A DNA stretch of 44,881 nt. Source: Anaerolineae bacterium. Its GTDB lineage: Bacteria; Chloroflexota; Anaerolineae; J102. Location: contig JALXCB010000136.1 of assembly GCA_026991225.1 (NCBI GenBank), positions 1-44,881 of the forward strand, in the 5' to 3' direction. The notes under the pieces were generated by a model. The model made no database searches and had not been told where the DNA came from. It saw only the letters and a program-made list of their open reading frames with translations. This document shows, piece by piece, positions 28,435-39,233 of the stretch (the stretch's first letter is position 1; each line of letters opens with the position of its first letter). Position numbers and translations under genes: made by a program.

Positions 28435-28488
28435 GGGGAAAATCCTGGTTGGAAATGGCTTCACGTTCGTTTACAAAAGCAACTCGAA

Positions 28489-28599
28489 ACCCACGTTGGG
28501 CGAGGTTACAACCGACGTAATGCGTAATTCGTATTCCGTAAAGTCGTTACGCATCACGTATTACGGATTACGGAGCCGGCTTTCCGCGCCAACCTGGAC
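28489..28599 (-). repeat. R1 palindromic repeat copy
   Basis: Left arm ACCCACGTTGGGCGAGG, core units GTAATGC, GTAATTC, GTATTCC with inverted complements, right arm GCCGGCTTTCCGCGCCAACC. One of two copies in the 528-bp gap before the flavin-reductase-like gene; no other gene is seen there. Confidence 0.85.
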
Positions 28600-28687
28600 G
28601 TGAGTTTTTACAGGGAATTGGCAAGTCATGACTCACCGCGTCTTCATTGTAAAAGGTCGGACGGCTCTTGGCAAACATTGGGAAGAT

Positions 28688-28870
28688 GCTATGAAAATAG
28701 CGCATCGGCGCTGATTGGGACAGGGATCGTCAGGCCCACGTTGGGCGAGTCTGCCACGGACGTGAAACGTGAAACCTCATGCCCTCACGCATCACGTTTC
28801 GCCCGTCACGTCATCGGCTTCCCGCGCCCGCCTGGGGCCGCGAGGCGTTTCCGTCTCTATCGGCGAGCCG
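28688..28870 (-). repeat. R1 palindromic repeat, full-length copy
   Basis: Begins GCTATGAAAATAGC, then CCCACGTTGGGCGAGTCTGC, a GTGAAAC-type core, then CGGCTTCCCGCGCCCGCC, ending GCGAGGCGTTTCCGTCTC. It is the reverse-strand form of the units at 16797 and 16980, including the distal end. Confidence 0.88.
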
Positions 28871-28962
28871 TTGATTGGGCTGACTGGTTGTGCGGCGGCT
28901 TTTGGGGTAAAATACAGCCTCCATGACTCCCACTCCACCCATCCATCCAAGGAGATGCCATC

Positions 28963-29445
28963 ATGAATCTTGAAGCCAAGAAAACCGCTCTGCGTATGCT
29001 GGTGCATGGCATTTACATCGTAGCCGCGGGCCAGGGCGAGGACGCGGTGGCCAATGGCGTTACCTGGCTCACCCAGGCCTCCTTCGATCCTCCGCTGATC
29101 ATGGTCGCCATCCGCGTCGACGGCCGTTTGCACGACGCGGTCCAGCGCACCGGCGCACTGGCGGTCAACATTCTCGCCCGCGACCAGCAGGACATGGCCC
29201 AAACCTTCTTCAAGCCCGCGGAGACCCGCGGCAACGCCATCAACGGCTACGTGTTCGAACCGGGCCCGGTCACCGGCTCTCCCCTGCTGGTGGATACGCC
29301 CGCCTGGTTCGAGGCCGAGGTGCGGCACAGCTTCCACGGCGGGGATCACACCGTGTTCATCGCCGAGGTGGTGGAAGCGGGCGTGCGCGACCCCAACGCC
29401 CAGCCCCTGGCCCTGCATGACACCCCCTGGCAGTATGGGGGGTAG
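28963..29445 (+). CDS. Flavin reductase-like FMN-binding protein
   Basis: A 160-residue protein with the split-barrel fold of the flavin reductase-like domain. ALRMLVHGIYIVAAGQG opens the fold, NGVTWLTQASFDPPLIMVAI contains the flavin-contact region, and ALAVNILARDQQDMAQTFF follows, typical of the family. It probably binds FMN and acts as a reductase or small oxidoreductase; the substrate is unknown. The ATG at 28963 has AAGGAG upstream. A weak promoter (TAAAAT near 28910) may lie in the last bases of the repeat-rich gap. Confidence 0.85.
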   Translation: MNLEAKKTALRMLVHGIYIVAAGQGEDAVANGVTWLTQASFDPPLIMVAIRVDGRLHDAVQRTGALAVNILARDQQDMAQTFFKPAETRGNAINGYVFEPGPVTGSPLLVDTPAWFEAEVRHSFHGGDHTVFIAEVVEAGVRDPNAQPLALHDTPWQYGG

Positions 29446-29448
29446 GGT

Positions 29449-29481
29449 TCAGTAAGCAGTCATCAGTAAGCAGTAATCAGT
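29449..29481. repeat. Heptad tract after the flavin reductase-like gene
   Basis: Units CAGTAAG, CAGTCAT, CAGTAAG, CAGTAAT, CAGTCCC at 7-bp spacing, starting four bases after the stop codon; the reverse-strand form of the CTGATTA type. Confidence 0.7.
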
Positions 29482-29499
29482 CCCACCGCGGCTGAACCC

Positions 29500-29643
29500 G
29501 CGCGGATACCGAAGAAAACGGCTCGCGGCCAGGCGGGCGCGGGAAGCCAGTCACGTAATGCGTAATGCGTGATGCGTAAAATCTCTCACGTTTCACGCAT
29601 CACGCATCACACCCGTTGCAGACTCGGCCAACGCGGGCCTGGC
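29500..29643 (+). repeat. R1 palindromic repeat copy
   Basis: GCGGATACCGAAGAAAACGG, CTCGCGGCCAGG, core GTAATGC, GTAATGC, GTGATGC with inverted complements, then CCCGTTGCAGACTCGGCCAA. Same orientation as 16797. Confidence 0.85.
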
Positions 29644-29719
29644 AACGAACAACGCATAACGAACAACGGACAAGGCTCAGCACAGAGAACGCAGATACCC
29701 GCAGATACTTCGCAGATTC

Positions 29720-29758
29720 CTACTGATTACTGATAACTGATCACTGATCACTAATCAC
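29720..29758. repeat. Heptad tract at the anti-sigma gene 3' end
   Basis: CTGATTA, CTGATAA, CTGATCA, CTGATCA, CTAATCA at 7-bp spacing. On the minus strand it encodes the last residues (VISDQ) and the TGA of the anti-sigma factor. Confidence 0.8.
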
Positions 29759-31693
29759 TCTGACCGGGCATTGCCAGCCGGGCGCCTGGGGGGAAACCTG
29801 GATGGTCAGGATCAGCTCTTGGGGCAGTGAGCCGTCGGCAGGGGGTTGCATCTCGGTGAGCATGGCGAAGCGGCGGTATTCGGGCAGCAGGCTCACGCCC
29901 GTGCGCATGACCGAGGTGCGGAAGGGCGCCAGCACACCCCCGTTGAGCATGGCATCATGGGCGGGATAAAGTCCCAACAAGATCTGAGGCGTGGCGCCGG
30001 ACGCATCGGCAGTCATGGCATACTCCCCTTCCAACACCCATCGCAGCACGCCATCTTCGGCACGGTTCACAGCCAGGCGGGTCAGGTTCAGCTCCAGAGG
30101 GGGTGGGGCGTCGTCATCGGGGTTGAAGCATGCGCCCGGATCAAAGGTGAAGGGGACATCGCGCAGGTCCTCTGTCAGCCAGGGCGGGACCCAGGTCAGG
30201 GAGAAGTCGGTCCAGGACATGACCGCCTGTTGCACGGCCGAGACCCGATCGGGATTTTGGGCGTGGAAGTCTTGCAACAGGGTATCGAGGATAGAGTCAT
30301 CCCGTGCATTGAGGATCATGACGTAGGTGAGATTTGCATCCGCGTCATGCCACAGCAGCCAGTATTCGTCGGGGCGTCCCAGCAGCTTGCGGCGCCAGAG
30401 TTTGCCCGTCCAGCCGTCGATCTCGCGGGTCCCCGACCACACGAACCTCCCCGGCAGATCGCGGCCAGCCTGCATCCGTTCCTGGATGGGCAAGGTGTAA
30501 TCGATGCTGGGGCGCACGAATTTATGAGGGAAGACTGTCGTATCATCCCAGCCTTCTGGCTCGCCCCGCCGCCAGTAGAAGCTCAAGCGTCGTTGGGCAT
30601 AGTCAAAGGGCGTTTTGGGAGCCAGATAGGTGAACTGTACCTGACCCATCTCCATAGAACCGATGGCATTGTTCATGGGCTGATGATAATCCCAGGGGAT
30701 GCTCGCGGGCAGAGTGAACCAGGTGCGCTGGGCGATCCATTCGGCCACCGCGGGCGCGTAGTGTAGAGCTCGTTCTCGCTCCTGCTTCCAATAGTCCCGC
30801 TGCCAGCCTGTGGAGCGAGAGGCAGTGTTCGGATTCAGCGTAGGCGTGGGTGTGGGTGGTTGAGACGAGCCGATCTGGATGGTGCACGAGGCTCCCATAG
30901 ACGAGACCGCACTCGTTTGGTCGAAAATCACCAAATCGAATGAGCGGGGCAAGTCGATGGTCCCCTCGCTCACATGACCTTCCACAACGAAGTTCCCTTC
31001 TCCCTCCCGTAGCACTGAATCACCCTGCGTGGTGTAGGTGAAATAATCTTTGGCCTTGGGAAAAATGGAAAGATAAAAATCCCCCGCGGCGGAGCGATAA
31101 TGCCCTTCGACGCGCCAGCGCTGATGCGCGTCCCAATCCTGTACGGAAAGCAGCACCCGCTCCACCTGAAGCACCACCAGACCATCCTGATTCCATGCAT
31201 TGGGGAAAGAGTGACATTGGGCCATGTTGAAATGGAAGGGGACTTCCTGGAGCCCAGCCTGTTCTGCGGGCGTAGAGGCCCCCATCATGGTCGGCGTGAG
31301 CGGTGAGGTCGAGGGGATGGCCATGTCTGGTTGGGAAAATCCGTTGGAACTCATCCAGTGCATCACACCCCAAAACAAGATTAACGCCACGGCCAGCCCG
31401 GCCAAAGCCAGCCCACGAGCCAGCGTCAGACGGGAAGCAGGAGATGAAGCCGGTTCTATAGCCTCCAGACCGCGCATCCGGCTCAGAAAGCGGGCCCGAA
31501 GTCCTGGCGATGGTGCGGGCATGGGCAGGGCCGCCAGGGCTTCGTCCATGGCCCGATAGGCCCGCAGTCGTTGGGCGCACTCTTGACAACGTTGCACATG
31601 CGCATCCACGGCTGCCCGCTCTTCCGGAGGCAAGTGGTTGTAAAAAGCCAGGGCGCGTCGTATGCGTTCGTGTCGAAACATGTCACACCTCAT
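29741..31693 (-). CDS. Membrane anti-sigma factor with large extracytoplasmic region
   Basis: A 650-residue protein. The N-terminus has an anti-sigma zinc finger with HVQRCQEC (His32, Cys36, Cys39); one transmembrane helix follows at about 92-113; the remaining 530 residues lie outside the membrane and include a Pro/Thr-rich linker ([11 protein letters not shown]) between two regions. It should hold the upstream ECF sigma factor until an envelope signal is sensed. Most such proteins have much smaller outer domains. The start overlaps the sigma gene by 4 bp (ATGA), as expected for a co-translated pair. No sensor family is recognised in the outer region. Confidence 0.8.
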   Translation of the reverse strand: MRCDMFRHERIRRALAFYNHLPPEERAAVDAHVQRCQECAQRLRAYRAMDEALAALPMPAPSPGLRARFLSRMRGLEAIEPASSPASRLTLARGLALAGLAVALILFWGVMHWMSSNGFSQPDMAIPSTSPLTPTMMGASTPAEQAGLQEVPFHFNMAQCHSFPNAWNQDGLVVLQVERVLLSVQDWDAHQRWRVEGHYRSAAGDFYLSIFPKAKDYFTYTTQGDSVLREGEGNFVVEGHVSEGTIDLPRSFDLVIFDQTSAVSSMGASCTIQIGSSQPPTPTPTLNPNTASRSTGWQRDYWKQERERALHYAPAVAEWIAQRTWFTLPASIPWDYHQPMNNAIGSMEMGQVQFTYLAPKTPFDYAQRRLSFYWRRGEPEGWDDTTVFPHKFVRPSIDYTLPIQERMQAGRDLPGRFVWSGTREIDGWTGKLWRRKLLGRPDEYWLLWHDADANLTYVMILNARDDSILDTLLQDFHAQNPDRVSAVQQAVMSWTDFSLTWVPPWLTEDLRDVPFTFDPGACFNPDDDAPPPLELNLTRLAVNRAEDGVLRWVLEGEYAMTADASGATPQILLGLYPAHDAMLNGGVLAPFRTSVMRTGVSLLPEYRRFAMLTEMQPPADGSLPQELILTIQVSPQAPGWQCPVRVISDQ

Positions 31694-32238
31694 CCTTGAA
31701 GGTAGGCGCGGAGTTGCTCTCGGGCCCGATAGAGGCGCGTGCGCACCGCGCCTTCGCTGATGCCCAGGGCCTGGGCGATCTCGCGACCGCTCAATCCCTG
31801 CACCGCGCTGAGCAAAAGGGGCGCTCGTAAGGAGGGAGGCAGCTCCCCCAGGGCCCGTTCCAGGTCCACGCGGGTTTCCGCGGCCTGCAACGCGCCTTGG
31901 GGGCCATGCGTCTCCACCTCTCGCGACCAGGGAAGCCAGCGGAAACGACGCCGCCGTTTGTGCGCGTTGAACGCCAGGTTGGTGGCGATGCGGTAGAGCC
32001 AGGCCCGCGGATTGGCTATCTCGGGCAATTGATGCCGGGCCTCGAAAGCTTTGAGAAACGTCTCTTGCGTCAATTCCTCGGCCAGTTCGCGATCCTCGCC
32101 CACCATCCTGTAGAGGTACCCAAAGATGGCCCGATGGTGGGCGTCGAACAATCGGACGACCTCTTGACTCAAATCCATGGGTGGGGAAGTAACCGCAATG
32201 GAGGCGTTCAACCCCATATCAGTGGGAGATTCAGTCAT
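31690..32238 (-). CDS. ECF-type RNA polymerase sigma factor
   Basis: A 182-residue sigma-70 family ECF factor. Region 2 is visible at about residues 25-90 (FDAHHRAIFGYLYRMVGEDRE, LTQETFLKAF, NPRAWLYRIATNLAFNAHKR), and region 4 near the C-terminus (LPPSLRAPLLLSAVQGLSGR, EIAQALGISEGAVRTRLYRA). It activates an unknown regulon when released by the anti-sigma factor encoded next. The ATG at 32238 has GGAG at proper distance and is preferred to the ATG at 32268. Confidence 0.92.
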   Translation of the reverse strand: MTESPTDMGLNASIAVTSPPMDLSQEVVRLFDAHHRAIFGYLYRMVGEDRELAEELTQETFLKAFEARHQLPEIANPRAWLYRIATNLAFNAHKRRRRFRWLPWSREVETHGPQGALQAAETRVDLERALGELPPSLRAPLLLSAVQGLSGREIAQALGISEGAVRTRLYRAREQLRAYLQG

Positions 32239-32734
32239 AGGGGCTCCGTTCCGCGCTGATTGTTCCATAAATAGGACGCGGACGAACGCGGATGAACGCG
32301 GATAAGTGTTCCGTAAATAGAGTAATCAGTAATCAATGGAAATCTGCGTCGCGTCTGCGAAAATCTGCGTTCTCTTCCTCGGTATCGGCGGCGAGCCGCC
32401 GCTCGGGCTGCTTGCGCTTCTCATAAGGTATGACAAAGGACAAAGAATTTTGTCACATTTTACCATCCGCCCCTTTCCCCCTCGTGCCTCCCCCTTCCCC
32501 TGCACGCGGGGAGCCCCGCTAGGAGCTACGAACGCGAAGCCCTGCGGGCTGGCGACCTGAGCCCCGCAGGCGCGCCGTTTCTAGCCGGGGGCATTATCCC
32601 CCGGTGTTGGCGGCGGGCCCTCGCACCACCACCCGCGGGGCCAACGCCCGCGCCAGACCTTGAAGGGTCTCCCAGACCTTCAAGGTCTTTGACGCCCGCT
32701 GCGGGCTGGCGACCTGAGCCCCGAAGGGGCTTTG
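32239..32734. other. Repeat-rich non-coding region
   Basis: No gene is supported. It holds GAACGCGGAT-type 10-bp repeats at 32271-32305, AATCTGCGT-type repeats at 32338-32375, several small GC hairpins with the word TAGCC, and a pair of palindromes at 32655-32690 (GACCTTGAAGGGTC and GACCTTCAAGGTC) related to 24511-24543. Confidence 0.6.
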
Positions 32735-33003
32735 TACCCGTAGCCCGAGGGTCCAGGATACTGTTGGTTTACTGCGCGAGTACGCCGAATAAATTCAGGT
32801 CTGAGGGCGTTCCGCCGCATGGTGCTCCTTCCCTGCGGTCAGGACAGGCCTTCGGGGACATATTTTCGCCCGGCTGGGCCTGTCTGCGCAGGCAGACAGG
32901 CGGCCAAAGGCCCCCAGCCCCGACTTCGAGTCGGCGGGGCCAAGGCGCACGGCAACCGGCATGAGGTTTGCCAACAGCATCGTTCACCCTCGGGCTTCAG
33001 GTA
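32735..33003. repeat. MITE-like element with 33-bp terminal inverted repeats
   Basis: The left end (32735-32767) and right end (32971-33003) are inverted copies matching at 27 of 33 positions; shared core words are AGCCCGAGGGT and CTGTTGG. The interior is GC-rich with a strong hairpin (CCTGTCTGC / GCAGACAGG). There is no open frame for a transposase and no obvious target duplication. It lies about 120 bp from the DGR template repeat. Confidence 0.7.
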
Positions 33004-33121
33004 GTCTAAAGTCGAGTACGTTAGTCGTGAACCGCCGAGGCTCGATTTGACCAAAGCTACAATTTACGGCAAAGTTTATGGCACTGACCGAACATGCGCT
33101 CGGTCGCAGGGCCGGGGCGTT

Positions 33122-33200
33122 TCGTCCGCCCGCAACAGGAACAACCCGAACAACAGGAACAACAATATCGGGTTTCGTGTGGTGGTCGTCCACAACTCTC
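33122..33200 (+). other. DGR template repeat (TR)
   Basis: Seventy-nine bases that align without gaps to the variable repeat at 34856-34934 (read on the minus strand). Of 22 adenines in the TR, 12 are replaced in the VR; of 57 other bases, none is. Read in the VR frame it gives a run of AAC codons (N R N N P N N R N N N I), which mutate at adenine without creating stop codons. The TR lies on the plus strand, opposite to the RT. Upstream, TTGACC (33047) and TACAAT (33058) are visible but not correctly spaced as one promoter. Confidence 0.96.
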
Positions 33201-33320
33201 CCCGCGTCCCCGCCAGAAATGCATGACGTCCATGCCGTCGTCATGCCGAGGCCCAAACGAGAGATGGCGCGCTCCGGTCCTGGCCGGTAGACGATTCGTT
33301 TACCGAGCAAATACGCATCT
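33201..33320 (+). ncRNA. Possible 3' part of the DGR template RNA
   Basis: The 120 bp after the TR contain no gene. A 7-bp hairpin, CATGACG (33222-33228) with CGTCATG (33239-33245), lies here. In characterised DGRs the sequence next to the TR folds and recruits the RT and Avd, so this segment, up to the hairpin at 33321, is the expected counterpart. This is inference from position and the stem only. Confidence 0.4.
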
Positions 33321-33362
33321 GACCCGCCTCCTGAGGCTGCAATACGTCCCTTGGGGCGGGTC
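33321..33362. terminator. Hairpin between the template RNA and avd
   Basis: GACCCGCC (33321-33328) pairs with GGCGGGTC (33355-33362), with a small CCTC/GAGG hairpin in the loop. AATTTGTT follows on the plus strand. It is placed to end the template RNA on one strand and the RT-avd mRNA on the other, and it overlaps the avd stop codon by two bases. The T-run is imperfect. Confidence 0.5.
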
Positions 33363-33699
33363 AATTTGTTCGGGTGCGTTTCCATCCGCCCAGCAAACGC
33401 CCGATTTCCTTCGTCATTTCGCTGACGTGACGGAACTGTCCCGGAGAAAGCAACGTTAGATCATGAGCCAGCAAGAGCGTTTTCCGCAATCCGGTGAGGG
33501 CAATATCCGCCGTCAGCAAATGATTGCTCGCATGGGCTTTATCCAGGCTGGCGGCGACGAGCGCGTCTTGCAGACGAAATGCCTGATTGTTGATGCGCTG
33601 CGCCAGGGTGAAGCGATATTCGCGAGGGAATTTGCGCGTCGTGCGCAAAAGCCACACAAGCAGGTCGTGGGTGCGGGTGAAGATAGGGGATTCGTTCAT
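33361..33699 (-). CDS. avd: DGR accessory protein Avd (four-helix bundle)
   Basis: A 112-residue, all-helical protein. It matches the Avd-like four-helix (S23-related) proteins commonly encoded beside DGR reverse transcriptases: DLLVWLLRTTRKFPREYRFT near the start, a middle helix with LLTADIALTGLRKTLLLAHD and the C-terminal EIGRLLGGWKR. In known systems Avd is a basic ring-shaped oligomer that binds the RT and the template RNA and is needed for retrohoming. The start overlaps the RT stop by ATGA; longer in-frame starts lie inside the RT gene and are rejected. Confidence 0.9.
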   Translation of the reverse strand: MNESPIFTRTHDLLVWLLRTTRKFPREYRFTLAQRINNQAFRLQDALVAASLDKAHASNHLLTADIALTGLRKTLLLAHDLTLLSPGQFRHVSEMTKEIGRLLGGWKRTRTN

Positions 33700-34769
33700 G
33701 GCTGTGGTGGGATAATAAGGTGAGAGCTGAGAAGTTCGCGGCGCAATCCATAGGTTTGACCGTAACGAACGTGGTTTACCCATCCCTGCACCGACGCTGT
33801 GATCGCATCCAACGGCAGACGACCCGCTTCGTATTCCGCCAGCATGTTTCGGAAACGGCGGCGAAAAGCAAACCCCTTGCGATTTTTCAACCGGCGGTGA
33901 TGGGGAAAGAGGATGAATCCGAGAAAAGGAATGCCCTCTGTGACAGGGCGAGGATGACAGCGATTCTCATGCAAGGTGAGACGCCGGTTGGAGAGGAAAT
34001 CGATGATAGCCTGCCGCCATTGCCAGAGAAGCCGTTTGTCGTCGGCGAAGAGGAGAAAATCATCCACATAGCGCACATAGCCGCGGCATTTTAGCTCCCG
34101 TTTGATGAAATGATCCAGGGGATTGAGGTAGACATTGGCCCAAAACTGGCTGGTGAGATTGCCGATAGGCAGGCCACGCGGGCGGCAGGCTGCGAAGAGA
34201 TCGTCCCCGGGGAAGTAGACCATCTCATATTCCGCGTCCAGGACGCCCTCGCCGCTGTGAAGAATCGTGCGGCAGAGCCAGAGGACATCGGGATCGACGA
34301 TGACTTGCTGGATAGTGTCGAGCAAGATGGCGTGATCAATGGCGGGGAAGAACTGGCGGATATCGCAGGTGAGCACGTAGGCGTGGCCGCGGGCAAAGGA
34401 CTGGGCGCGATCCAGAGCTTTGTGCGTGCCCTTGCCCACCCGATTGGCGTAGCTGTCGTGGATGAATCGGCGTTCGAAGAGGGGCTCGATGACGTTGCAC
34501 AGGGCGTGGTGCACCACCCGATCACGAAAGGGAGCGGCTGAGATCAAGCGCTTCTTGGGTTCGTGGATGGTGAAGTTGACGTAGGGGCCGGGGCGATAGG
34601 TTTTGGAACTCAGTTCCTGTTGCAAGACCAGCAGCCGCTCTCCCACGTTCTGCTCGAAGCGGGCCGCGGGCGGCTGGCCGCGCTTGCCTTTGCGGGCCTT
34701 GCGCCAGGCCAGCAGCAGGTTGTCCCAGGCGGTGACCTGGTGGTAAAGATGGCGGTAGAAACGTCCCAT
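33696..34769 (-). CDS. DGR reverse transcriptase
   Basis: A 357-residue retron/group II-like reverse transcriptase of the DGR type. The catalytic aspartates are Asp136 (in TCDIRQFFPAIDH) and the YVDD box (234-237). GLPIGNLTSQF (199-209) is the motif 4 form characteristic of DGR enzymes. HPRPVTEGIPFLGF and VQGWVNHVRYG follow in the thumb. There is no maturase, endonuclease or extra domain. It copies the template RNA into cDNA with errors at adenines. It lies 69 bp after the target gene and overlaps avd by 4 bp, giving a target-RT-avd order on one strand. Confidence 0.96.
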   Translation of the reverse strand: MGRFYRHLYHQVTAWDNLLLAWRKARKGKRGQPPAARFEQNVGERLLVLQQELSSKTYRPGPYVNFTIHEPKKRLISAAPFRDRVVHHALCNVIEPLFERRFIHDSYANRVGKGTHKALDRAQSFARGHAYVLTCDIRQFFPAIDHAILLDTIQQVIVDPDVLWLCRTILHSGEGVLDAEYEMVYFPGDDLFAACRPRGLPIGNLTSQFWANVYLNPLDHFIKRELKCRGYVRYVDDFLLFADDKRLLWQWRQAIIDFLSNRRLTLHENRCHPRPVTEGIPFLGFILFPHHRRLKNRKGFAFRRRFRNMLAEYEAGRLPLDAITASVQGWVNHVRYGQTYGLRRELLSSHLIIPPQP

Positions 34770-34787
34770 TTTTCAAAAAAATTTTGG

Positions 34788-34804
34788 ATCGCCCTGCGGG
34801 CGAT
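34788..34804. other. Perfect hairpin downstream of the variable repeat
   Basis: ATCGCCC-TGC-GGGCGAT, 7 bp with a 3-nt loop, located between the target stop codon and the RT start and 52 bp beyond the VR. DGR targets often carry a GC-rich hairpin or cruciform just after the VR that helps target recognition; this one is farther away than the best-known examples. On the minus strand it is followed by a T-rich run, so a terminator role is the alternative. Confidence 0.5.
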
Positions 34805-34809
34805 AGGAT

Positions 34810-34851
34810 TCAGAAGATCAGAAACCAGCATTCAGAAATCAGGAACCAGAA
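34810..34851. repeat. Heptad tract at the end of the DGR target gene
   Basis: Plus-strand units AGATCAG, AAACCAG, CATTCAG, AAATCAG, GAACCAG at 7-bp spacing. It begins about five bases from the VR and carries the target's TGA stop codon on the minus strand. Confidence 0.7.
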
Positions 34852-37800
34852 CGACGAGAGATGGGGACGACCACCACACGAAACCCGAGATTGTTGAACC
34901 TGTAGCCCGGGAAGTTCCCGTCGCGGGCGGACGAGGTGACGCCCTTGGCGTTGTTCCACCAGGAGCCGCCGCGAAGGCGACCGGGCGGTTCGAGCACCCA
35001 CTCCCACACGTTACCGTTGAGGTCATGGACGCCCGCGGGCGTGGCCCCGGTGGGATACATGTGCACGGGCGTGGTCTGGCCCAGGCCGCTTTCTTTCGAA
35101 TTGACCTTGGCGGGGTCGAAGTCATCGCCCCAGGCGTAGCGGGCGGGGCCGGCCGCGGCCTCCCATTCCTGCTCCGTGGGCAGCCGCACCTCCTCACCCG
35201 CCCCAATGATCCCCTCCTCCCGCCAGCGTTCGGTCAGCCACTGGCAATAGGCCCGGGCCTCGTACCAGCTCACGCCCACCACAGGCTGCGTCGATTTGTT
35301 GAGACGGGGTTCGTCTTGGTAACGCGGGCCCTGACGCCAATTTCTGTTGAATAGCCAGCTTTCGATATCCTTGACGGCTTCTTCGCTCCACCAAGGCTTG
35401 TCTTCGTCATACCCGCCTGCGTCCATAAAACGCTGATACTGGGCATTGGTCACGAGGTATTTGCCCATGCGGAAGGCGTAGCCCAGGCCCGCCGCGTCGA
35501 TGGGGATGAGCTCGGCCAGGTCTTTAGGCAGCACGCCCAGGTCGGCCAGGATGAGCCCGGCCTCCAGGCGTTGGCGGGCCACCGCCCGCACCCGGTCCTC
35601 CGCCAGGCCCCCGGGCATGGGCAGGTCAGGGTTTTGCATGATGGCGGTGAGCGCAGGAGCCAGATCCTCCAGCAGGTCCTCGGCGTCTTCATCGTCCAGG
35701 CTGCCAACGCCGTATTCCAGCCAGGCCCGGCCCGCCAGCACCGGGGCCTGCCAGCGGCTGGGATCTTTTTTCATGCCCCGGGCCAGTCTCTGGACGATGC
35801 TGAGCCAGTATCCCTCCATCTGTACATCCTTGATGGTGAGATAGCCGCACGCGAGGAGGATGACTTCATGCCAGATATCATTTTCCACCAGGCCCAGGAA
35901 GGTGCGACCGGGATTCTTCAAGGTGAGAAGCCAGCGCGCGGCCAGATATTCCTGAAAACTGCGATGGGGGAAAACAAAGGTGTCATCCTCATCCGGGATG
36001 AGCAAGCCGCTGCGTTCCCGCATCAAAGCAATGACCCGCGCGGCCCACGTTTCCGCTTCGAACCTGCTGCGGCCTTTTTGCCCATACAAATCGATCAGAG
36101 CCTTTTTCAAATCCGAGACGTGGATGGCGGCCGATCGCTCCCGGCCGCTCTTGGCGTGGGCTTCATAGGTCAGCTTCCACAACATTTTCTCGAATTCGGC
36201 CTTATCGATGGGAGGCTCTGCGGCATCGAGCAAGAGCCGTAAGCGGGCGACCTCCCCCTCTTCCGCCTTTTGCTTGTCCCATTCCCACAGCAACTGCTGC
36301 ACCACCTGATGATACAACTCCACCCGTCTTTCCGGGAGGTCGGAATGGGTGTTGACCATGGCCAGCATAGTGAGGAGCAAAGGCGTACCCGCCATCTCTT
36401 GCAACACCTGACGTTCATCGATGGTCTTCAGCAATTTATCCCGCTTTGCCTGCGCCTTCTTTGGCTGCACGATCTCTCCCACCCGCAACATCTCGTCATA
36501 CCATTGCTGGACGAAGCGCCGAATCCGGGGATCATCAAGCGGCGCGAGCGTCGCTTCTGTGAATTCCGTCAGCCGATACCGGGGCGCGTTGTAGGGGCGG
36601 ATGCGGCTGGTGACCAGCACCCGGCATTGGGGATGGGCGATGCGAAATTCCCGAATGCTGTCGATGATGACTTGGCGATGATTGAAGTCGGAGGCCCGTT
36701 CGGGCACGGGCGCTTCATCCAGACCATCGAACATGACCAGGGTCTGAGGATGACTGAGACGCTTGATGAGCTGCTGGCGATCGATGCCGCCCTTGAATTC
36801 CCTTTCGATTGCCCAATACACCAGTTCCACATCGGGTTTGTCCACGCCTTCTCCGGTTTCACGGTTGGGTTGCGAACGAAGCATGCTGCTCCAGCGTCGA
36901 ATGACGACGCGAATGGGGAAAAGGGGCGCTTCGAAGGGGGCACCCAGCATGTCGCGCCATCGGGGCTCTTCCCCCAGATGCGCTCCCGCCAAAATATAGG
37001 CCAGATAATTCACGAAAGTGGATTTGCCCGATCCCGGGTTGCCCAATAGCACCAACTCCGCATGCTTTGCCAACACCTCCACCGCGGTGAGCGGCGCCAA
37101 CGCCCGGGCCAAGGCGTCTCTATCTGCGGCCCAGCGGCTCAAAGGATGGCGCTTCCAATCTTCTTCTTTCTCTTCCGCCAGCCGCATCAAGCTCAAACCA
37201 TACTCTCTGACGGCATCGACGTTCACTTTCCGGACGTCTCCACCGCCCCGCCGCAACAGCCAGGTGTTCATGGCTTCTCGCAAGGTCGGGCGTTGATCCT
37301 GAGGCACCTGCAATCGGTCGAAAACATCATCGAGTGTCGGCAGTGGGCTTTCCACCGCCAGATCCACATACACCCGATGCAATTCCACCCGCTTTTCCTG
37401 CGCTTGCCGATCCTTTTCCGTGCTCAGCGCATCTTCCGCCAACCTGACCCGGTCGGTCTTTTCGCGCAGACGACGCAGGTAGCTTTTCTCCCCTTCTTCC
37501 AGCCGTAATTCCCTCTGACTTTCAATCCACGCCCGCACTTGCGCTTGAAGCTGTGCGATTCGCTCATCAAGTCTGTCCACCTTGCCCTCGGTACGCAACA
37601 CACTGCGCCCGATGACGAGCAGCGCCTGCTCCTCCAGGGGCAGCAAGGCCTGGCGCACACACAGCAGATAGACGCGCACGGCCAGGTCCCGCTGGGCCGG
37701 GTTCAGGCCGGGCCAATCGCGGGCGATGGCCTGACGCAGGGCTGCTTCCAGCGCGTCCTCGTTTGGGCTTTGGGGCAGCGCGTCCAGGGCCTTTTGCAGC

Positions 37801-38066
37801 GCGGGCAGGTCTCGCAGGGGCAGATCATGCATCCACTGCTGCAGGGCGCTGTCCCCCACCTGCTGCATGAAGCAGGCGTCGGCCTGGTTCATGGCTCGGG
37901 ACAGGGCCTTTTGGTTTTCGCCCGCCTTCAGCCATGCATCCAGACGGCTTTCCGCCTCATCCAGACCCACATCAGCGATCACGGACAGGGTCCCATCTCC
38001 CACGGCTTTGCTCACCGTGTGTTTCAACAGGGCTTTGCCCAGGCGCAACGGGAATTTGCCGTTCAT
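34839..38066 (-). CDS. DGR target: NACHT NTPase with C-terminal FGE/C-type-lectin-like variable domain
   Basis: A 1075-residue STAND-class protein. Residues 1-300 are mostly helical with a coiled-coil-like stretch (about 165-230), the likely effector or adaptor part. The NACHT domain has Walker A GNPGSGKST (342-350), Walker B LVMFDGLDE (443-451), GTPLLLTML (560-568) and FPHRSFQEYLAA (699-710). About 720-860 is helical. From about 867 a formylglycine-generating-enzyme-like domain follows (MGKYLVTNAQYQRFM, VGVSWYEARAYCQWL, LNGNVWEWV, RGGSWW, LGFRVVVV). Its last part, residues 1046-1070, is encoded by the VR; D1049, G1050, F1052, G1054, Y1055, F1057, L1060, P1068 and I1069 differ from the template. 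It lacks sign of secretion. ATG 38066 has GGAG eight bases upstream. Confidence 0.93.
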   Translation of the reverse strand: MNGKFPLRLGKALLKHTVSKAVGDGTLSVIADVGLDEAESRLDAWLKAGENQKALSRAMNQADACFMQQVGDSALQQWMHDLPLRDLPALQKALDALPQSPNEDALEAALRQAIARDWPGLNPAQRDLAVRVYLLCVRQALLPLEEQALLVIGRSVLRTEGKVDRLDERIAQLQAQVRAWIESQRELRLEEGEKSYLRRLREKTDRVRLAEDALSTEKDRQAQEKRVELHRVYVDLAVESPLPTLDDVFDRLQVPQDQRPTLREAMNTWLLRRGGGDVRKVNVDAVREYGLSLMRLAEEKEEDWKRHPLSRWAADRDALARALAPLTAVEVLAKHAELVLLGNPGSGKSTFVNYLAYILAGAHLGEEPRWRDMLGAPFEAPLFPIRVVIRRWSSMLRSQPNRETGEGVDKPDVELVYWAIEREFKGGIDRQQLIKRLSHPQTLVMFDGLDEAPVPERASDFNHRQVIIDSIREFRIAHPQCRVLVTSRIRPYNAPRYRLTEFTEATLAPLDDPRIRRFVQQWYDEMLRVGEIVQPKKAQAKRDKLLKTIDERQVLQEMAGTPLLLTMLAMVNTHSDLPERRVELYHQVVQQLLWEWDKQKAEEGEVARLRLLLDAAEPPIDKAEFEKMLWKLTYEAHAKSGRERSAAIHVSDLKKALIDLYGQKGRSRFEAETWAARVIALMRERSGLLIPDEDDTFVFPHRSFQEYLAARWLLTLKNPGRTFLGLVENDIWHEVILLACGYLTIKDVQMEGYWLSIVQRLARGMKKDPSRWQAPVLAGRAWLEYGVGSLDDEDAEDLLEDLAPALTAIMQNPDLPMPGGLAEDRVRAVARQRLEAGLILADLGVLPKDLAELIPIDAAGLGYAFRMGKYLVTNAQYQRFMDAGGYDEDKPWWSEEAVKDIESWLFNRNWRQGPRYQDEPRLNKSTQPVVGVSWYEARAYCQWLTERWREEGIIGAGEEVRLPTEQEWEAAAGPARYAWGDDFDPAKVNSKESGLGQTTPVHMYPTGATPAGVHDLNGNVWEWVLEPPGRLRGGSWWNNAKGVTSSARDGNFPGYRFNNLGFRVVVVPISRRSGS
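34856..34934 (-). other. DGR variable repeat (VR)
   Basis: Last 79 bp of the variable domain, matching the template at 33122-33200. All 12 differences correspond to template adenines: A to G at four, A to T at six and A to C at two. The unmutated, nearly adenine-free stretch CGGGTTTCGTGTGGTGGTCG near its 3' end is suited to be the initiation-of-homology region. VR ends 15 bp before the stop codon. Confidence 0.96.
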
Positions 38067-38496: not shown

Positions 38497-38634
38497 GCTA
38501 TGCCGTAATAGCGCGTTGGCGCTACCTTCAAAAGGTTGACAAGCCAACGATGAGCGAGTCTACCACGACGTGAAACGTGAGATCATTACGCATTACGCAT
38601 CACGTTTCACGCCTGGCTTCCTCGCCAATCCAAT
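38497..38634 (-). repeat. R1 palindromic repeat copy
   Basis: GCTATGCCGTAATAGC-like end, degraded left arm GCCAACGATGAGCGAGTCT, core GTGAAAC, GTGAGAT with complements ATTACGC, ATTACGC, ATCACGT, right arm GGCTTCCTCGCCAATCC. With the promoter and the hairpin repeat it fills the 614-bp gap; no gene is seen. Confidence 0.8.
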
Positions 38635-38680
38635 CACCCGAATGCTCCATCAACCAACACGTACTCCCGGAGGTGTGATC

Positions 38681-39094
38681 ATGGCCTATCTCTTCCCATC
38701 TGCAGAATGGGTCGCCGCGTTCAAAGAAGCCATCAACAACAATGAAGCGTATCGTAAATCAGCCGCCAAATGGGAAGGCGATTTCTACTTCATCGTCAAG
38801 GGCAAGGGCCTGGAAAAACCCTTCGTCATGTATCTGGACCTGTGGCACGGGGAATGCCGGGAAGCGCATGTGGTCGAGGATATGAACGAAAAGACGCCCG
38901 AATTCATCATCGAGGGCGACATCGAGGTCTACAAGCAGATCTTCGACAAAAAACTCGACCCCATCCGCGCCCTGGTCAGCCGTAAACTCAAGCTCAAGGG
39001 CAACCTGGGCAAAATCATGCGCTCGGTCAAGGCCACCCTGGACCTGGTCAACTCCGCCGCGTCCGTGCCCACGGAATATCCCGAGGGCGCTTGA
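38681..39094 (+). CDS. SCP2 sterol-binding-like protein
   Basis: A 137-residue protein resembling the SCP2/sterol carrier fold, a small hydrophobic-pocket domain that binds lipids or acyl chains. Seen: FPSAEWVAAFKEAINNNEAY at the start, ANW-like amphipathic strands with FYFIVKG and VMYLDLWHGE, and a C-terminal helix with KLKLKGNLGKIMR. That last KGN-G-KLM region is typical. The ATG at 38681 has CGGAGGTG seven bases upstream, which decides the start over a longer open frame. Ligand unknown. Followed by alcohol dehydrogenase and aldehyde oxidoreductase genes, so a link to fatty-chain alcohols or aldehydes is possible. Confidence 0.8.
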   Translation: MAYLFPSAEWVAAFKEAINNNEAYRKSAAKWEGDFYFIVKGKGLEKPFVMYLDLWHGECREAHVVEDMNEKTPEFIIEGDIEVYKQIFDKKLDPIRALVSRKLKLKGNLGKIMRSVKATLDLVNSAASVPTEYPEGA

Positions 39095-39121
39095 AAATCG
39101 ACGTTGCTTGCAACGAATCGC

Positions 39122-39233
39122 CAGGCCAACATTGGGCGAGCCTGCAACCGGCGTGACACGTGATGCGTGAAACGTGAGGTCATTACGCATCACGCATCAC
39201 GTATCATTCCCCGGCTTCCCACGCCAACCTGGC
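39122..39233 (-). repeat. R1 palindromic repeat copy
   Basis: Left arm GGCCAACATTGGGCGAGCC, TGCAACCGGCGTG, core GTGATGC, GTGAAAC and complements ATTACGC, ATCACGC, ATCACGT, right arm CCGGCTTCCCACGCCAACC. A CTGATTA, CTGATAA, CTGGACC heptad tract (39240-39260) follows and stops just before the alcohol dehydrogenase start. Confidence 0.88.

Follow-up and report, generated by a model that had tools for sequence, protein, structure and literature searches.

A diversity-generating retroelement of an Anaerolineae bacterium with an apparently reversed template-RNA unit

The window, which is the whole stretch of 44,881 nucleotides from an Anaerolineae bacterium analysed here, carries on its minus strand intact reading frames for a target protein, a reverse transcriptase (RT) and an accessory variability determinant (avd). 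The target gene (34839-38066) encodes a 1075-aa protein in which Pfam recognized a NACHT NTPase domain (E 1.2e-7) and a C-terminal FGE-sulfatase domain (C-type lectin fold, E 5.1e-35) containing the variable repeat (VR). RT (33696-34769) matched Pfam RVT_1 (E 2.6e-20), and its translation contains YVDD and LPIGNLTSQ, which fit the motifs YxDD and (I/V/L)GxxxSQ of the clade of diversity-generating retroelements (DGRs). It shares 35% identity with Brt of the Bordetella phage BPP-1 and 52-68% with DGR relatives. The avd frame spans 33361-33783, with a likely ATG start at 33699 (hence 33361-33699) that overlaps the RT stop codon in a stop-start overlap. Its product matched Pfam bAvd (PF22296, E 1.3e-17) above the gathering score and NCBIfam DivGenRetAVD (E 5e-22) slightly below the cut-off. 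Judged from its sequence, the locus is an Anaerolineae-type DGR, as indicated by the RT motifs, Avd, and the repeat adenines and spacer RNA described below.

Between VR and RT, a 7-bp hairpin on the minus strand (34788-34804, -10.5 kcal/mol) is a possible equivalent of the target-side hairpin that BPP-1 needs. It lies farther from VR than does the hairpin of BPP-1. We take the NACHT/FGE-sulfatase target to resemble the DGR-diversified NTPase conflict sensors. One report describes such sensors in multicellular bacteria, including filamentous Chloroflexi, as putative antigen-sensor targets of DGRs (PMC10907252).

The template repeat (TR) is located at 33122-33200 on the plus strand, and VR at 34856-34934 on the minus strand, at the 3' end of the target gene and ending near its stop codon. 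The two repeats align without gaps over 79 bp with 12 differences, all of which (12/12) fall at TR adenines. Given 22 A among the 79 positions, the probability of adenine-only mismatches arising by chance is P = 1.3e-8. VR carries T (6), G (4) or C (2) in place of these adenines, and in the target frame the differences affect first or second codon positions only, never the third. The longest exact run shared by TR and VR is 24 bp and constitutes the 3' end of the pair, the part compared with an IMH. At 79 bp the match is short, though matches of 66-86 bp are also seen in other relatives. The alignment and the strands of the genes bear out an earlier reading made from the sequence alone (the sequence-only reading), which had placed the TR sense on the plus strand and target, RT and avd on the minus strand.

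TR is followed on the plus strand by a structured spacer RNA (Sp, 33188-33305). In relatives, a fold recurs behind TR that consists of an outer stem, the order GCC-GGAAAT-inner stem-CGA-GGC, and then GGCG...CCTGGCCG. We built a covariance model (R1) of this spacer from 17 relatives, leaving the window out. In the alignment, 95.8% of the cells are paired, both partners vary in 14 of the 16 pairs, and covariation scores 0.598, compared to 0.260 in shuffled alignments and at most 0.154 when partners were slid. These counts are biased in favour of the structure, since it was drawn by hand on the same alignment, for which the variable loops of several rows had been trimmed beforehand. R1 matched the window, which served as the independent test, at 33188-33288 on the plus strand with 63.8 bits (E 3.6e-14, E-values being rough) and all 16 pairs canonical, while the second-best match within the window reached 18 bits. 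This was also the sole match over the whole genome; an Rfam search of 32600-35100 gave no match. A small hairpin (33285-33304, -8.2 kcal/mol) follows the model match. Directly before TR on the plus strand lies a 5' hairpin, TGACCGA/TCGGTCG, followed by CAGGGCC (33085-33106). A hairpin with GGG 8-24 nt ahead of TR was found at 19 of 92 loci, the window included, compared to 2.35 +/- 1.4 after shuffling.

Since TR is immediately followed by the Sp fold on the plus strand, the functional template RNA would be a plus-strand RNA. The whole template-RNA unit, composed of the 5' hairpin, TR and Sp (~33085-33305), is thus encoded on the plus strand, flipped in place and apparently complete. What is new here is a spacer-RNA model with covarying pairs for DGRs of this lineage and the placement of the spacer right behind TR on the plus strand. 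Furthermore, the model gives the strand of the template RNA even at loci where no VR was found.

The sequence-only reading had considered that a TR in the standard orientation elsewhere in the genome might fit VR better. No such TR was found. The sole other TR belongs to a second, degraded DGR (L010, contig C167, 10012-11239), whose VR and TR are arranged in the standard orientation. Its TR was rejected as the true template of the window VR because it fits badly, with 36 mismatches of which 15 fall at A. By contrast, 25 of the 26 differences between the L010 TR and its own VR are at adenines. L010 contains an IS200-like transposase reading frame, recognized by eye, and its RT is reduced to the C-terminal end. 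R1 detected no second Sp element in the genome, including near L010.

To establish how TR is oriented in related DGRs, as the sequence-only reading had proposed, RT homologues were gathered from genome contigs (34 loci) and from members of the class, and TR/VR pairs were sought blind to strand. TR is on the RT strand in 89 of 94 non-redundant loci with a TR/VR pair, in a sample weighted towards relatives of the window RT. TR and VR are jointly opposite RT in three of the 94 (L097, L181 and L114, which resemble the group 4 DGRs discussed below), and TR is opposite both RT and VR in only two: the window (VR>RT>avd>TR<) and L042 (VR>TR<avd>RT>). Using the Sp element, which also covers loci where no VR was found, the template was opposite RT and avd in 1 of 58 loci, namely the window. 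TR opposite both RT and VR was absent from 96 further DGRs, mostly from phage contigs and other Chloroflexota. Identity to the nearest RT does not exceed 68%, and none of the nearest relatives has the flipped unit; no closer relative with such a unit was present among the 20 genomes of the family or order. A search of viral contigs started from the window RT returned no RT relative.

L042, from the Acidobacteria MAG F1-80-MAGs082, has TR opposite VR, avd and RT as in the window, and 14 of its 15 TR/VR differences are at TR adenines. However, TR of L042 is placed between VR and avd and points at the target gene, whereas the window TR lies behind avd, and the L042 spacer has no R1 match above chance (8.8 bits). 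In the RT tree, the window forms a lone branch within a clade of mixed layouts, and L042 is distant. Because the two RTs lie so far apart, the flips of the window and L042 look independent.

Other departures from the common layout were also seen. In L107, L127, L139 and L151, which belong to one RT subclade, TR and RT share a strand opposite that of avd and the VR found; VRs of L139 occur on either strand. At L081, L082, L088, L105, L126, L137 and L182, avd is opposite RT, TR and VR (VR>TR>avd<RT>). Nearly all loci with avd turned relative to RT fall in one RT subclade, where this is a clade trait.

Like the window, the prototype BPP-1 has a DGR-type RT, Avd, an adenine-specific TR/VR pair and a structured spacer 3' of TR, but its mtd-VR, avd, TR and brt are all on one strand, whereas in the window TR and spacer lie behind avd and opposite everything else. 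The "inverted" group 4 DGRs of Shewanella, Vibrio and Photobacterium (Schillinger et al. 2012, PMC3521204) have TR and RT on different strands, as in the window, so that in neither case can the mRNA of RT double as template RNA. However, group 4 keeps TR, VR and target together and turns RT alone, while the window keeps RT, avd, VR and target together and turns TR alone. With VR and target on the RT strand, the window falls outside group 4. The same study allowed in theory for a TR and VR that occupy opposite strands, exemplified by extra VRs at a distance in Pseudogulbenkiania (PMC3521204). A 2019 survey groups 948 DGRs into 122 patterns of order and orientation (Yan 2019, PMC6642488); some of these patterns may include the layout of the window, and earlier reports of inverted TRs are possible. 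RT opposite TR and VR, as well as orientation-independent homing, are already published, and the window is a rare further layout. Its primary TR/VR pair is an actual case of the opposite-strand arrangement that Schillinger et al. deemed possible in theory.

How the template would be transcribed was addressed from the gene layout. To the left of TR, an ECF sigma-factor gene (31690-32268) and its neighbour are read the other way. Since no recognised plus-strand gene adjoins TR on this side, the template RNA most likely needs its own plus-strand promoter between 32268 and ~33085. A scan for the sigma-70 consensus left of 33122 returned no site at the scan threshold. A PWM scan gave two weak plus-strand candidates: TTGACC-17-CAAAGT (33047-33075), which the consensus scan had missed and whose predicted RNA start falls just ahead of the 5' hairpin, and TTCACC-18-TAAAGT (32983-33012, p 0.03 against shuffled sequences), located in repeat sequence. 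Thus, of the earlier claim of a separate promoter left of 33122, the need for it is upheld by the gene layout, while the site itself is represented by these weak candidates only.

The sequence-only reading had also proposed a hairpin that could end both transcripts. A stable hairpin does lie between Sp and the avd stop codon, which it overlaps (33319-33364, -25.6 and -25.5 kcal/mol on the two strands), and it is a possible bidirectional transcription end. Its action as such was not corroborated, as there is no T-run or U-tract on either side and it was absent from the results of the terminator scan. Furthermore, the suggestion that separate transcription is special to the inverted layout is less well supported. 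In Nostoc, very high expression is reported for TR-RNA and low expression for RT and Avd (PMC12691664), which by analogy suggests that separate expression of the template probably extends beyond inverted cassettes.

Taken together, we consider it quite probable that the locus is an Anaerolineae-type DGR whose template-RNA unit sits in the usual place behind avd but is reversed, separately transcribed and homing to VR. Transcription of the template RNA would start at a separate promoter on the plus strand (between 32268 and ~33085), and once folded the RNA would recruit the RT and Avd encoded on the opposite strand. By analogy with BPP-1, cDNA synthesis would be primed at the spacer, and the adenine-mutagenised cDNA would then replace VR through homology, the genomic orientation of TR being irrelevant. 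In BPP-1, avd, TR and brt function in trans and an inverted target homed like the wild type (PMC3240598), and the spacer recruits bRT-Avd and primes the cDNA (PMC12875486). As the known mechanism needs no co-orientation, the inverted TR of the window should be functional if transcribed. Against the reversed unit count the layout being found in one MAG, the lack of a convincing promoter and the short TR match.

The flip could have disabled the cassette, if a recent repeat-driven rearrangement severed the transcription of TR and the VR differences stem from earlier activity in the standard orientation. Dispersed repeats do adjoin the unit, no clear promoter was found and the other DGR of the genome is already degraded; however, TR, Sp (16 of 16 pairs canonical), RT, avd and the 5' hairpin have remained intact and the TR-VR differences are restricted to adenines, which rules out an old decay, though not a very recent flip. 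We consider this explanation unlikely. It seems extremely improbable that the TR unit was merely given the wrong orientation during assembly. The contig does belong to a MAG of 201 contigs, with repeats immediately left of the unit, but from 33027 through avd and RT no flanking inverted repeats able to flip the unit were found, the longest exact TR/VR run of 24 bp is short for a mis-join, and L042, from a separate assembly, displays the same kind of inversion.

Another explanation ascribes a regulatory role to the convergent transcription itself, in which read-through from avd would be antisense to the template and curb mutagenesis. The end of avd lies ~60 bp from Sp, the two units face each other across a hairpin devoid of a U-tract, and a second inverted TR is known in L042. 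Yet the L042 template RNA points to the target gene instead of avd, and conservation of the layout was not seen across the RT tree, and we regard this explanation as very unlikely. It is nevertheless compatible with the best explanation, a reversed and separately transcribed unit. A broader proposal, which we hold to be decidedly doubtful, is that the template RNA forms a transcription unit of its own, convergent with target-RT-avd and regulated in its level separately from it, possibly with an antisense brake from avd, so that mutagenesis would be governed by template supply. If true, inverted templates would be a regulatory arrangement that recurs among DGRs, to which L042 gives a hint.

For the template RNA of most DGRs, an origin as by-product of the avd or RT transcript is conceivable, which makes a promoter of its own hard to prove. 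The layout of the window excludes such an origin, and separate transcription of the template is therefore directly testable at this locus, a natural case of necessarily separate template and enzyme transcripts.

The flip probably arose by a rearrangement near the repeats on the left of the unit, as judged from the neighbouring sequence. The left border is formed by a MITE-like dispersed palindromic repeat (32738-33003) with 48 matches in the genome and the ends AGGATACTGTTGG and CCAACAGCATCGTT. It is followed on the plus strand by an end fragment of a second dispersed family (33007-33024), the 18-mer TAAAGTCNAGTACGTTAG, which has 152 copies in the genome and 0 in the control. This 18-mer was considered as a promoter or regulon site and rejected because 13 sampled copies have common flanks on both sides, indicating a longer dispersed repeat. 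These flanks are TTCGTGTCTTCGAAAAACTTCGAGCCTTCGTGGC ... CAGTTAC, and the family has ~150 copies in the 3.9-Mb genome. The intergenic regions at 28481-29760, 32321-32375 and 38567-39214 are also rich in degenerate repeats, of the types ACGTAATGCGTAATGCGTGATGCG and CAGTAATCAGTAATC.
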